DNA from: Thermoanaerobaculia bacterium
GTDB lineage: Bacteria > Acidobacteriota > Thermoanaerobaculia > Multivoradales > JAHEKO01
Length of the DNA: 64,000 bases
Assembly: GCA_945787635.1 (NCBI GenBank)
Contig: CALZIK010000070.1
Coordinates: 1 to 64,000 of the forward strand
Direction: 5' to 3'
Below are positions 54,376 to 62,951 of this stretch, in pieces. Positions within the stretch are counted from its first letter, which is position 1. Each line of letters begins with the position of its first letter. A program made the translations under genes and the position numbers. The notes under the pieces are model-generated. The model did no database searches. It was not told the DNA's origin and worked only from the letters and a program-made list of their open reading frames with translations.

Positions 54376-55269
54376 TCAACCGGCGACCCGGTTTCTGCCG
54401 CTGTTCTTGGCTTCGTAGAGCTTCTTGTCGGCCCGCTCCACCAGATCGAGTGCCGTCTGGTCCCGCGGATCGAACTGAGCGCAGCCGGCGCTGGCGGTGA
54501 CTCGAATCTCCTCGCCGAGGTAGTCGAAGGCGTGGCGCTCGATCCTCCTGCGGAGCTTCTCGGCCAGCTTCTTGGCGCCTGCGAGCTTGGTCTCGGGCAG
54601 AACCAGGGCGAACTCCTCGCCGCCGTAACGAGCAAACACTTCTTCGCGGCGAATCCTCTTTGCCAACAGTTCGGCCAGTTGGCGCAGGACGGCGTCGCCC
54701 GCCAGATGGCCGTGCTCGTCGTTGCATCGCTTGAAGTGGTCGATGTCGAGCAGGATGAAACTGAACGGCCGATTGTGCCGCCGAGCCCGTATCACTTCGC
54801 GCTCGAGCATCTCGGACAAATACCGTTTGTTGTGAATCTGGGTGAGACCGTCGAGGATCGAGACGCGGTAGATCTCCTCGTGATAGCGGACCTCGGCGTC
54901 GGCGCCCGACAGGTACTTGAGGATGGTGAAACCCGCCTGGATACGGTCGTTGTTGACAAGCAGTTGGTTACCCGGAATCGGATTCTCGTTGACGTAGGTT
55001 CCGTTGGTCGAGCCGCCGTCGACGACGTACCAACCGTCGAGGCGGCGCTCGAATTGAGCATGCGCTCTCGACACGCTGTCGTCGTGCAACAGAATGTCGC
55101 AGTCGGCCTCCCGACCCAGACGAAGCGGACGATCTGTGAGCGAAAACCGCCGGCCCAGCAGGGTCGGCTGGGTCGTGTAGATCACGACCACGCAGTCGTT
55201 CTCGGTGTGAACGATGTCGAGCTGTCGGCGACTGACTCGGGTTACACGGGTCTCGGGCTGATCGCTCAT
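54376..55269 (-). CDS. FHA-GGDEF protein, probable diguanylate cyclase
   Basis: A 297-residue soluble protein. Residues about 35-115 are an FHA domain (LGREADCDILL, SVSRAHAQFE, STNGTYVN), which binds phosphothreonine. Residues about 130-295 are a GGDEF domain with the active motif ARYGGEEFAL and DGLTQIHNKRYL at its start. The inhibitory I-site RxxD reads RREE, so product inhibition may be weak or absent. It should make cyclic di-GMP under control of a phosphorylated partner. An FHA protein gene lies just upstream on the same strand. Confidence 0.93.
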   Translation of the reverse strand: MSDQPETRVTRVSRRQLDIVHTENDCVVVIYTTQPTLLGRRFSLTDRPLRLGREADCDILLHDDSVSRAHAQFERRLDGWYVVDGGSTNGTYVNENPIPGNQLLVNNDRIQAGFTILKYLSGADAEVRYHEEIYRVSILDGLTQIHNKRYLSEMLEREVIRARRHNRPFSFILLDIDHFKRCNDEHGHLAGDAVLRQLAELLAKRIRREEVFARYGGEEFALVLPETKLAGAKKLAEKLRRRIERHAFDYLGEEIRVTASAGCAQFDPRDQTALDLVERADKKLYEAKNSGRNRVAG

Positions 55270-55403: not shown

Positions 55404-56081
55404 TCAGTCGCGGGGACGAATGCGGTCAAGAGTCTCTCTTAGCTGTTCGAGATGGGCAACTCTTCCATCCACCGCCTCCCGCAGTGCTTCATCCCTTCGT
55501 TCGGGCGCTTCGGCCTGGTAGATCTCGCTGATTCGCGCCAGCACGTCGGCAAGCTCCACCGCGGCGTCCTTGAAGGGATTCTCGTAGGGCCGTTCAATGA
55601 CTGTGGGTGCTTCCAGCGCCTCGGGCTCCGGCTCGGTGCCACCCGCCGCGACGCGCACGAGGAAGCCGCCGATCCGGATTGTCGAGTTGGCGGAGAGTGG
55701 ATAGGGGATGTCCGGTTCGAGCTGCTGGTCGTCGAGGAACGTGAAGTTGCTGCTATTGAGGTCGGTGACGGTCGCTTCGCCGTTCTCGACCGAGATCCGG
55801 GCATGCGTGCTGCTGACGTGACACTCGGGGTCCTCGAGCGTCCAGTCGCACTTGCTCGCGTCCCTGGAGCGACCCAGCGTGACGGTTGGCTGGTTGAAGG
55901 TCCGCGCTTCGCCGGGGGAGTCGGGAGCGGACGCGTCGACGATCTCGACCGTGAGCAGCGCTCCGGTCTCCGCTTGTGAAGCGGAAACGCTCGCGTGCAC
56001 GAACGGGTTGCGCCGGCTTCCTTGAAGCTCCGACTTGAAGACCATCCGTCTGACGTGCTGAGGCTTGTCCGAATCCGCCAT
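55404..56081 (-). CDS. FHA-domain protein
   Basis: A 225-residue protein. Residues 1-40 are basic and variable. Residues about 45-145 form an FHA domain (VTLGRSRDASKCDW, SSTHARISV, TVTDLNSSNFTFLD); the usual NGT is replaced by SNFTF. The C-terminal third is charged and helical (ELADVLARISEIYQAEAPER). It presumably reads Ser/Thr phosphorylation. It is co-directional with the FHA-GGDEF gene and divergent from the large duplicated decarboxylase-like gene (79-bp gap). Confidence 0.85.
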   Translation of the reverse strand: MADSDKPQHVRRMVFKSELQGSRRNPFVHASVSASQAETGALLTVEIVDASAPDSPGEARTFNQPTVTLGRSRDASKCDWTLEDPECHVSSTHARISVENGEATVTDLNSSNFTFLDDQQLEPDIPYPLSANSTIRIGGFLVRVAAGGTEPEPEALEAPTVIERPYENPFKDAAVELADVLARISEIYQAEAPERRDEALREAVDGRVAHLEQLRETLDRIRPRD

Positions 56082-56160: not shown

Positions 56161-59067
56161 GTGGCCGCTCCAAGTCGGGTCAAACCAGTGGGGAATCCTC
56201 GCTACAACAACGCGCGCGGCGCGGCGACCTTGATCGGTGTGCCTCCGTTTGTCTTTGACGGGGTGGTGATGCGTATCTTTCCGCTCAAGGCGAGCATGCG
56301 CGCGCTCCGGAGCTTCTGCGACCGGTACCTGAATCTGATGCCGAAGGAGATCGCGTACTTCGAGCCGGCCGCGCCGTACGTGCTGCTCTCGGCGATCAAC
56401 TACGGCCGGATGGGGCAGGAGGCGTCGAATCTCGGCTGGGTGTCGCAGAACGAGGTGGTCTTCAGCGTCCTGCTCAGGCGATCACGCCTCGAAGGCGACC
56501 AGATGGTCTTCGAAGACTTCGCGTCGGTCTCGCCGTTCATCTATGTCGATGACTATTCCTCGATGGCGACGGGTCGCGAGGTCTACGGCTGGCCCAAGAC
56601 CATGGCCTGGCTGACACCGGGGATCAACGAATGGGCACGGCATCCGGAGAGCCCGCAGGACGTCTTCGTCCTGAGCTCGATGGTGTTCCCGGAGCTCTTC
56701 GCCGGGAAACGTCAAGAGCCCAGAGTCCTGCTCGAGATTCAGCGGCAGCCGACGCCGTCGGTGACGCGGTTCCCACCGGATCTGTCTAATCCGCTCAACC
56801 CGCTGCTGAGCATCCCCAAAGCGATGATCGAAGGGATGTCGGTCGTGAGCGACATGATCCAGGCGGTTGCGGCGCTTCCTCTCCAAGGGTACCCAGCCGA
56901 TCGCGAGATGGGCGCGGTACCTCAGATGATGGGCAAGGCGACCGAGTATCTGGATGTTTTCCGCAGACTGCCGATCGGCAACACGGTCAACTTCAAGCAG
57001 TTTCGGGACGCTCGCGACGCCAATGCGGCTTGCTATCAGGCCATCACGACCGCTCCGATGACCGTGGTGCGCTACAACGGCGGCGGCCTTCTGGGCGACA
57101 TGATGCAACTGCGCGGAGACCCCACCGGTGGCTTCTCGCTTCGGGTCCATCGCTATCCAACCCAGCCGATCATCGAGTCGCTCGGCCTCGAAGTCGATCG
57201 AGAGGAGGATGTCGGCGATCATGCGGTGGCGACTCTCAAACCGTACTTTCCACTCTGGGTCAACCTCGACTTCAACTACGGCAAGGGTGAGCTGGTCTGC
57301 TGGCGAACGACCCAGATCGGATGGCGCAGGGACACCGTGCCCGACGAGAATCCCGAGCCGCCATCGAGCCTGGCCGTCAAGTACCCCTACAACACCGCTC
57401 GAGGCGGAGCCACCGAGGCGGTCACCGGGCCGTTCTACTTTCCCAACGTCACGCAGAGGGTCCTGCCGCTACTTGCGACCCACGAGAAGCTACGGAGCTT
57501 CTGCGAAGAATATCTGGACAACGACTTCGTCGTCTTCGAACCTTGGGGAGCCTACGTCTACCTCATCGTCACGACGTTCGAGGAGATGGCCTCCGAGACT
57601 TACAACGTCGGTTGGTGGGCCAGTCGCCAAGTGACGTTTTCGTTTCCGGTGCGCTGGTACAAGCGCAAGGACCTCCGGGGAGGACCGGTGATCCCGAAGC
57701 GTGCAGAGGAGGAGTTCGAGCTGGTGGGCACGGGGCTGGTCAGCCCGTTTGCCTTCACCGACAGCGACCTTGGCGCCACGACCGGCCGCGAAGTCCAGGG
57801 CCTGCCGATGGTCAAGGCCGCGATCGAGAGCCCGGAGAGCAGTTGGCTGGAGGACTCGGGGCCCGCCCGGATGAGCGATCTCCTGCGGCTGTCGACGAAC
57901 GTCTACCCGGGCTTCAACGCCGGGCAGAAAACGCAGGACGAGCTGCTGCTGAAGATCACGACACGGAACAACATCCCTGAGAACGACGATCTGGCCTGGC
58001 GAAAAGTCGCCGGCGAGTGGGGAGAGCGCCTCTATGCCGAGTTGGAGGAGAGGCTCTACCTGAGAACCGTATGGGCGGAGCAGTTCGACAACCTGCGTGC
58101 CCTTTCGATCGAGTTGCTGCGCGGCGAAGGCGGGCAGCCGATCAACGAGGTGTCGCTGCGGCAGTTCCGGGACATCGACGATCCGGAAAGCGCTTGCTAT
58201 CAGGCCATCACCGTGACTCGAACGACGATCGAGGATCTCCATGAGCTTCGAGAGATCGAAGATCCGCTGCACGTTGCGATACACCGCTATCCGAATCAGC
58301 CGCTGGTGAAGCTCCTTGGTTTGCGGGTCAAGTCGACCGACGCCTCGGGCAGCTCGGTCGTCGACTACCTGGAGCCCATCCGCCCGTTCTGGATGAAGGT
58401 GGCGATGCGCGTGAACCTGGGAGAAGACATTTTCTGGCGCGCGGGGTCCACGGTCTGGTTGCCGAACTCTACGGGCTGGTATCAACCGGTCGAAGAGCTC
58501 CGGAAAGAGCCCTGGAAGTCGAGCTCGGGATCGCTACGTTGGTACCGCGAGATGGGGGTCGAGCAGCCCGTCGCTCCTCGGCTCCTCTATCTGGTCAACG
58601 GGACACCGGAGGTCGCGACGGAGCTGTCCAAGGATCTGGATGGGGACGTCGGGGACGCGAGACGCGACCTGAGAAGCTTCTGGAGAGCCTGGCGTTACCC
58701 CAAGGGCAAGGCGCCGGACCGCATGTCGCGAGAGGATGCTCGGGAAGCTGTCGGCGAAGATATGACCGGGGGCTACATCCCGCCACAGGCGGTGATCGAG
58801 AGCCTTCTCGAGGCCGATTGGGGACGGCAGTCGGCCCATCGCTCGGGAGAGGAACGCCCGCCCGCGTTCGCGTTGCCGAAGAGCTCCCTCGGGAACGACA
58901 AGGTCCGGAAGAGCTACGCTAAGATGCTGGGCTTCGAGGAGTCGGGAGACCGCCTAGTTCACACCGGTTTCGTGAAAGAGCTCGCGGAGGCCAAGGAGGG
59001 CAAACACGCGAAACGCTATGCCGAAGCACGGCGCAAGTACGAGGAGAGCAGGAAGAAAGGGAAGTAG
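56161..59067 (+). CDS. Duplicated acetoacetate-decarboxylase-like protein, function unknown
   Basis: A 968-residue soluble protein starting at a GTG. Two related halves (about residues 14-390 and 400-770) each repeat the order YN-ARG-AT, RSFC-YL, FEP, GREV and ACYQAIT. The GREVYGWPK segment in half 1 resembles the acetoacetate decarboxylase active-site strand and keeps the lysine (Lys146) at the place of the Schiff-base Lys; half 2 has Met550 there. The C-terminal 200 residues are charged and unlike either half. I cannot name a substrate. It is flanked by FHA genes and xdhD but shows no clear link to either. Confidence 0.65.
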   Translation: MAAPSRVKPVGNPRYNNARGAATLIGVPPFVFDGVVMRIFPLKASMRALRSFCDRYLNLMPKEIAYFEPAAPYVLLSAINYGRMGQEASNLGWVSQNEVVFSVLLRRSRLEGDQMVFEDFASVSPFIYVDDYSSMATGREVYGWPKTMAWLTPGINEWARHPESPQDVFVLSSMVFPELFAGKRQEPRVLLEIQRQPTPSVTRFPPDLSNPLNPLLSIPKAMIEGMSVVSDMIQAVAALPLQGYPADREMGAVPQMMGKATEYLDVFRRLPIGNTVNFKQFRDARDANAACYQAITTAPMTVVRYNGGGLLGDMMQLRGDPTGGFSLRVHRYPTQPIIESLGLEVDREEDVGDHAVATLKPYFPLWVNLDFNYGKGELVCWRTTQIGWRRDTVPDENPEPPSSLAVKYPYNTARGGATEAVTGPFYFPNVTQRVLPLLATHEKLRSFCEEYLDNDFVVFEPWGAYVYLIVTTFEEMASETYNVGWWASRQVTFSFPVRWYKRKDLRGGPVIPKRAEEEFELVGTGLVSPFAFTDSDLGATTGREVQGLPMVKAAIESPESSWLEDSGPARMSDLLRLSTNVYPGFNAGQKTQDELLLKITTRNNIPENDDLAWRKVAGEWGERLYAELEERLYLRTVWAEQFDNLRALSIELLRGEGGQPINEVSLRQFRDIDDPESACYQAITVTRTTIEDLHELREIEDPLHVAIHRYPNQPLVKLLGLRVKSTDASGSSVVDYLEPIRPFWMKVAMRVNLGEDIFWRAGSTVWLPNSTGWYQPVEELRKEPWKSSSGSLRWYREMGVEQPVAPRLLYLVNGTPEVATELSKDLDGDVGDARRDLRSFWRAWRYPKGKAPDRMSREDAREAVGEDMTGGYIPPQAVIESLLEADWGRQSAHRSGEERPPAFALPKSSLGNDKVRKSYAKMLGFEESGDRLVHTGFVKELAEAKEGKHAKRYAEARRKYEESRKKGK

Positions 59068-59112: not shown

Positions 59113-61737
<2,625 letters not shown>

Positions 61738-61991
61738 GCTAGGTGTTCCCGAGTTCAGAGGACGTTCGCGAGTGTTGGATGCGCGGTCAGAGTATCCCAG
61801 GGCTCCGGACCGGGCAACTTTCGCGAGTGCGGACCAGTCGCGGGCGTTGGGCTGCCGGCCGGCGTCGAATCCGGGATGACCTCTGTAGACTGCCCTCCGC
61901 AATCCGGCTCGCATCCCGTGCTTCCGGCGCTCTTTCTCTCGGGTGGAGTTGACTCGGCTGGGTTCGCGAGGGACTCTGGCGCTCGAGACAA

Positions 61992-62951
61992 ATGACCGTG
62001 AAGTCGAAAGCCCGTTTGGCCGTAGTGGCAGTCGGTGGCAACTCACTCATCGCCGACGAGGCACATGTGACGATCTCCGATCAGTCGGTGACCGCGACGG
62101 CGACGGCCCACCAGATCGCCGAGATGAGCGCCGACGGGTGGAACCTGGTCGTGACCCACGGCAACGGTCCTCAGGTCGGGTTCATACTGCGCCGCTCGGA
62201 GATCGGGATGAACGAGGTTCCTCCCATCCCGATGGACTACGCGACATCCAACACGCAGGGCTCGATCGGGTACATGTTTCAGCGGGCCCTGCGCAACGAG
62301 TTCCGGCGGCGCGGAATCGCGCGGGATGTCGTCTCGTTGATCACCCAGACCCTGGTCGATCGAAACGATCCGGCCTTCGACGCGCCGACCAAGCCGATAG
62401 GCCCTCACCTGGATGAAGCCACGGCTCGTCAACGGGCCGTTGAACACGGGTGGGTGGTGAAGGAAGACTCGGGACGCGGCTGGCGGCGGGTCGTGGCGTC
62501 GCCGCTTTCGCTGGCGATCATCGAGCTCGAGGTGATTCGCTCTCTGGTGAGGCAGGGTACCGTGGCGATCGCCTGCGGCGGCGGCGGTCTGCCGGTTTTC
62601 GAAGACGAAAGGGGCGAGCTCATGCGGGTCGAGGCGGTGATCGACAAGGATCACGCCTCCAGCCTGTTGGCGCGAGAGCTCGGCGCCGACCTGCTTCTGA
62701 TCACGACCGCGGTCGAGAAGGTGGCGGTCAACTTCGGCAAGCCGAATCAAGAGTGGCTCAGCCGGGTGACCCTGGCGGAGGCCCGACGCCATCAGGCGGA
62801 CGGTCAGTTCGCTCCCGGCAGCATGGGGCCCAAGATCGAGGCGATGATCGCCTTTGTCGAGCGAACCGGGGGTCGGGGGTTGATCACCAATCCTCAGAAC
62901 CTGACTCGGGCTCTCGCCGGCGAGACCGGCACCGAGATCGTGCCGGACTGA
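61992..62951 (+). CDS. arcC: Carbamate kinase
   Basis: A 319-residue kinase of the amino-acid-kinase fold: LAVVAVGGNSLI, VVTHGNGPQVG, the PMDYATSNTQGSIGYMFQRA region, VASPLSLAIIE, ACGGGGLPVFED and AVIDKDHASSLLARELGAD, then SMGPKIEAMIAF. It transfers phosphate from carbamoyl phosphate to ADP, giving ATP, ammonia and CO2. In this setting its substrate would come from YgeW, so this is the ATP-yielding step. ygeX begins 20 bp after its stop. The 254-bp gap to xdhD should hold divergent promoters, but I see no clear boxes. Confidence 0.95.
   Translation: MTVKSKARLAVVAVGGNSLIADEAHVTISDQSVTATATAHQIAEMSADGWNLVVTHGNGPQVGFILRRSEIGMNEVPPIPMDYATSNTQGSIGYMFQRALRNEFRRRGIARDVVSLITQTLVDRNDPAFDAPTKPIGPHLDEATARQRAVEHGWVVKEDSGRGWRRVVASPLSLAIIELEVIRSLVRQGTVAIACGGGGLPVFEDERGELMRVEAVIDKDHASSLLARELGADLLLITTAVEKVAVNFGKPNQEWLSRVTLAEARRHQADGQFAPGSMGPKIEAMIAFVERTGGRGLITNPQNLTRALAGETGTEIVPD

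Follow-up and report, generated by a model that had tools for sequence, protein, structure and literature searches.

The double-ADC gene of the window

The window, a stretch of 64,000 nucleotides from a Thermoanaerobaculia bacterium (contig CALZIK010000070.1), harbours a gene whose product consists of two acetoacetate decarboxylase (ADC)-type halves and a charged C-terminal region (Table 1); proteins of this build are called double-ADC below. The gene stands alone, with a divergent FHA gene upstream (55404-56081, - strand) and a xanthine-dehydrogenase-type gene converging on it from downstream (59113-62046, - strand). Two adjacent upstream frames, at 54376-55269 and 55404-56081 (- strand), are FHA-like as read from the sequence, one apparently with a GGDEF-type domain.

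Table 1. Features of the double-ADC gene in the window.
Feature	Position	Strand	Basis
Double-ADC gene, 968 aa, GTG start	56161..59067	+	Uninterrupted open frame
Half 1, residues ~12-392, ADC-type domain with putative Schiff-base lysine	56194..57336	+	PF06314, hhalign, AlphaFold2
Glu98, equivalent of C. acetobutylicum ADC Glu76	56452..56454	+	Alignment mapping; Glu in 34/34
Lys146, equivalent of ADC Schiff-base Lys115	56596..56598	+	Lys in 34/34 double-ADC, 31/31 single-ADC
Half 2, residues ~408-770, lysine-less ADC-fold domain	57382..58470	+	VIA, profile match to half 1
Gln490, half-2 position matching Glu76	57628..57630	+	Glu in only 19/34
Met550, half-2 lysine position	57808..57810	+	T17, S7, A6, M3, V1; never Lys
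Charged C-terminal region, residues 791-968	58531..59064	+	36.5% charged; pLDDT mostly 33-84
Short conserved C-terminal motif, PQAVIESLLEADWG and onward, residues 873-920	58777..58920	+	Column conservation

The initial annotation had described two homologous halves, a lysine in the first only and a charged C-terminal region, and all three descriptions held. Aligned to each other, the halves are 30.4% identical at 391 positions and score 146 bits; none of 2000 shuffles exceeded 27 bits, which rules out chance similarity, and the half-1 profile matched the half-2 profile at E = 1.3e-64. At the GRExxGxPK site, half 1 reads TGREVYGWPK and ends in K146, whereas the aligned half-2 string, TGREVQGLPM, ends in M550. 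Charged residues are more frequent in the last ~178 residues than in the two halves (21 and 25%). Moreover, a motif of the form P(Q)x6-7LSxxW(G)...P (residues ~873-901) is seen again in many relatives, with P875 kept in 22/23, L883 in 28/30, W887 in 25/27 and P901 in 24/28 of the rows having the respective column. The C-terminal region is thus more than low complexity.

Fold of the two halves

An AlphaFold2 model was produced with a 26-row family alignment and searched with Foldseek and VIA. The model reached a pTM of 0.79, with pLDDT of 85-95 for the greater part of each half's core (mostly 85-93 in half 1); confidence is weaker in the helical insert at 203-269, between 771 and 814, and through much of the sequence after 814. 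Against the PDB, Foldseek ranks 1-17 all belong to the ADC superfamily (E from 2.8e-9 to 4.8e-6), followed by a wide gap to rank 18. VIA aligned 219-242 residues to solved structures of the superfamily at Z of 17.7-21.3, the next unrelated row being at Z 4.6; the aligned residues are mostly 405-766, that is, the lysine-less half.

Half 1 was tied to the same fold via PF06314, hhalign and its match to half 2. By sequence, PF06314 matched half 1 only, and marginally (30.0 bits for a cut-off of 29.8), while at E 0.01 it matched 25 of 26 relatives; hhalign of half 1 to ordinary ADCs gave E 3.8e-6 (Prob 87). Searches of PDB sequences returned no matches by phmmer, for either the whole protein or one relative, and by profile a best match of just E 0.81, to 4zbo. 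Some of the VIA ranges start in half 1, from which the halves may exchange structural elements like the subunits of a dimer. By its predicted fold, the double-ADC protein is a member of the ADC superfamily, as the initial annotation had proposed.

Solved members of this superfamily include acetoacetate decarboxylase itself (C. acetobutylicum 3bh2 and 3bgt; L. pneumophila 3c8w; PF06314), which has the fold and the equivalents of the half-1 lysine and of E98 (its Glu76). It is a single domain of ~245 aa, whereas the double-ADC protein fuses two halves, one of them lysine-less, each with a helical insert before its KQFRD strand, and Arg29 is not kept. The Streptomyces bingchenggensis aldolase-dehydratase (4zbo/4zbt/6eej), MppR (4jm3) and Swit_4259 (5upb) have the same fold with lysine and glutamate; going by their PDB titles, they perform chemistry beyond acetoacetate decarboxylation on this scaffold. 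They too are single-domain proteins, unlike the two-half double-ADC, and are not known to have an FAD partner.

Catalytic residues across the family

A sample of 34 double-ADC proteins was compared, 28 of which came from a DNA-pattern scan with two patterns, all sequences matching the one that contains the half-1 lysine. Residues were mapped by alignments to 3bh2, the profile alignment setting Glu76 on E98 and Lys115 on K146. Arg29, Glu61, Glu76 and Lys115 were taken as the functional residues of the C. acetobutylicum enzyme, in a numbering that fits the printed alignment coordinates.

K146 is Lys in 34/34 proteins, a count partly selected for by the scan pattern, and E98 is Glu in 34/34. The half-2 result is free of this bias: the lysine position holds Thr (17), Ser (7), Ala (6), Met (3) or Val (1) and Lys in 0/34, and the Glu76 position is Glu in 19/34 (Gln490 in the window copy). 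The proteins recovered by tblastn or profile search (four from the window genome, two from its order-level relative G029, plus L128, L129, L130 and L132) divide in the same way, with Lys in half 1 and another residue in half 2. Furthermore, near-invariant columns (at least 33/34) number 44 in half 1 and 11 in half 2. On this residue evidence, the pattern of one catalytic and one non-catalytic half suggested earlier for the window gene is fixed in evolution and no accident of that gene, since every protein has K146 and E98, none has Lys at the half-2 site and the conserved columns stand at 44 versus 11. In single-domain (single-ADC) relatives, the catalytic position is likewise Lys (31/31).

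Half 2 keeps the KQFRD lysine in 31/34, the GRE glutamate (E544) in 34/34 and G547 in 34/34, with K, Q and Y of its KQFRD..CYQ motif kept in 31-33/34. From these residues it may bind a ligand or carry out some chemistry, although its likely reading is that of an inactive domain.

The equivalent of Arg29 is V35 in a hand alignment to 3bh2 with a register of +/-1-2 residues, the 34 proteins having Val (31), Thr (2) or Met (1); around ADC Glu61, the profile alignment is unreliable. Acetoacetate decarboxylase activity proper is therefore without support, and the Val at the Arg29 position points to a different carbonyl compound as the probable substrate.

Distribution and origin of the family

A contig scan with a single sequence recovered zero relatives, while a scan from an alignment recovered them. 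By record titles, the 34 proteins come from Acidobacteriota, Pseudomonadota, Myxococcota, Gemmatimonadota and Nitrospirota. The family is rare: double-ADC was found in 2 of 59 close genomes, and in the bacterial family around Sulfitobacter one genome among 295 has a clear copy. The window genome is an outlier with four double-ADC genes plus one single-ADC gene. Plasmid records gave no match. The double-ADC genes at L131 and L028 are broken by a stop or divided between two frames, by sequencing error or decay.

In a tree of 28 half-1, 28 half-2 and 24 single domains (200 bootstraps), half 1, half 2 and the singles were each separated from the rest by a branch in 100% of the bootstrap trees, with branch supports of 99/96, 100/99 and 100/99, respectively; an earlier tree with 31 singles gave the same grouping. 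The simplest reading is that a single duplication and a single ancient loss of the lysine would have preceded the spread across phyla.

A putative isoprenoid operon around double-ADC genes

Among 35 scan loci outside the window genome, 32 have an FAD oxidoreductase (the FAD partner), an isoprenyl diphosphate synthase (IPPS) or both within the DNA covered, usually as a single compact operon; neither was found at L031, at L051 or on the short contig L053. The recurrent order is FAD partner, a ~250-aa protein, IPPS and double-ADC, with small gaps or overlapping genes. Common extra neighbours are an HpnA-like epimerase, a saccharopine-dehydrogenase-like protein, a methyltransferase and a large kinase/cyclase-AAA regulator, which resembles TIGR03903 (TOMM system kinase/cyclase) at a score below the TIGR03903 cut-off. 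Such a large cyclase- or kinase-AAA regulator adjoins the operon at L026:14004-17435, L036:14780-17992 and L019:1333-5109. No known terpene cyclase is among the recurrent cluster genes.

The FAD partner is the best conserved protein of the operon (50-63% identity across phyla). Its N-terminal FAD-binding region, and that region only, is like those of HpnE hydroxysqualene dehydroxylase, phytoene and zeta-carotene desaturases and the plant-type carotene desaturases; it differs from them in its length of ~727 aa, in scoring far under the curated cut-offs and in its link to ADC. Among the 59 close genomes, the full-length FAD partner occurs in just the two genomes with double-ADC.

The ~250-aa protein (L025:8061-8798 and equivalents) lies inside the double-ADC operon in ~24 loci. 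Pfam gave zero matches for it and the PDB none that convinced; its predicted structure combines a helical hairpin with a C-terminal beta domain, the latter confidently modelled. A phasin identity, considered from the helical hairpin, was dropped as neither a family nor a PDB fold matched.

Single-ADC proteins are linked to the same FAD protein

At 29 of 31 single-ADC loci, this FAD protein is fused to the single-ADC or encoded next to it; in the other two, L081 and L153, an FAD frame was not found in the 1.5-kb flanks. FAD and ADC share one open frame in 16 of the 31 and lie in adjoining frames in 13. Both orders of fusion occur, ADC-FAD in L092, L140, L144 and L150 and FAD-ADC in the remaining fusions. 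Thus, by fusion, adjacency and co-occurrence, a functional link between the FAD protein and ADC is very likely.

Of 192 genomes in the class that includes Minicystis, 38 had a hit with the search profile. Minicystis rosea itself has three FAD/single-ADC fusions in one genome, in both orders (L092:6821-9790, L093:4883-8200 and L094:4589-7645), and many further FAD/single-ADC fusion proteins were seen in the class. In the checked neighbours of the three Minicystis FAD-ADC fusion loci there was neither a ~250-aa partner nor an isoprenyl synthase; hence the isoprenoid link may be limited to the double-ADC branch.

Status of the window copy

Paralogues of the window gene lie on contigs C14, C25 and C52 of the same genome. 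The full operon is on C52 (L019), where the ~250-aa protein, double-ADC, IPPS, FAD partner and methyltransferase are encoded on one strand. The window copy is an orphan paralogue, additional to and dispersed from the one in the complete operon, and its function is read from its relatives: by homology, it might share the role of the operon family, a view we hold at slightly short of even confidence. That it is instead a decaying or repurposed paralogue outside the pathway is unlikely; the genome has four double-ADC copies to one FAD partner gene and this one lacks operon neighbours, yet its 968 codons are intact, its half-1 catalytic residues are present and each half is 49-53% identical to that of the C14 copy.

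Near this C14 copy, which is the window protein's closest paralogue, lies a separate single-ADC with lysine (L017:338-1660); a gene judged by eye to encode a CPA2-type antiporter separates the two.

Proposed function and alternative explanations

The grades of confidence worded in this report are judgements, none computed. The architecture, the fold and the residue pattern of one active and one dead half are held with high confidence. Overall, the explanation we favour, with reasonable confidence, is that half 1 is a lysine enzyme which, together with the FAD protein, works on an isoprenoid-derived carbonyl, and that half 2 is a pseudo-enzyme. K146 would bind a carbonyl substrate as an imine or enamine, E98 being its partner acid/base; such Schiff-base catalysis in half 1 is probable from the conserved residues. 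Half 2 would be an ancient pseudo-enzyme that preserved its fold; its probable role is to complete the domain pair or to hold the substrate or a partner. The isoprenyl diphosphate synthase of the operon would make an isoprenoid on which double-ADC and the dedicated FAD oxidoreductase act, the FAD enzyme making or consuming the carbonyl on which half 1 would act by decarboxylation, aldol/retro-aldol reaction or dehydration. Joint action of the family with the FAD protein is likely, while an isoprenoid as the substrate of double-ADC is favoured by a narrow measure. More tentatively, these proteins could form a previously undescribed isoprenoid pathway that crosses phyla, in which FAD partner, IPPS, the ~250-aa protein and double-ADC take part and the last performs carbon-carbon chemistry on a prenyl-derived carbonyl.

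Alternatively, neither half would be enzymatic: the protein would partner the FAD oxidoreductase by binding lipid or as a scaffold, its lysine being kept for structure or to bind a ligand. The retention of half 2 in every double-ADC without its catalytic lysine is consistent with this, and a lipid-particle complex would suit the long variable C-termini and the adjoining ~250-aa helical protein. However, K146 and E98 are jointly strict and the lysine recurs in all singles, the hallmark of catalysis in this superfamily, so that we consider such a role improbable. Half 2 could be active with another chemistry through Thr/Ser, the KQFRD lysine and the GRE glutamate, making the protein bifunctional. 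The conservation of E544, G547 and the KQFRD..CYQ residues would agree with this, but the lysine position drifts among five residues, the Glu76 site is Glu in little over half of the proteins and near-invariant columns are few; a bifunctional enzyme is thus quite improbable. An ordinary acetoacetate decarboxylase, merely duplicated and working in acetone or butyrate metabolism, is hardly credible: the fold, the lysine and the Glu76 equivalent agree with it, yet the Arg29 equivalent is Val, Thr or Met throughout, the Pfam match is marginal and isoprenoid and FAD neighbours recur.

The superfamily is known; what is new is the two-half architecture and its gene context. In a literature search limited to open-licence PMC papers, no description of the double-ADC family was found, and the conserved isoprenoid gene cluster that holds it is apparently undescribed so far. 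The operon and fusion evidence points to a conserved cluster in cultured Sulfitobacter, Polyangium, Minicystis, Rhodopila and Methylotetracoccus. As a family of fused catalytic and putatively pseudo-catalytic ADC proteins, with one ancient loss of the lysine, double-ADC would offer a clean case for studying the role of a dead domain that is retained.
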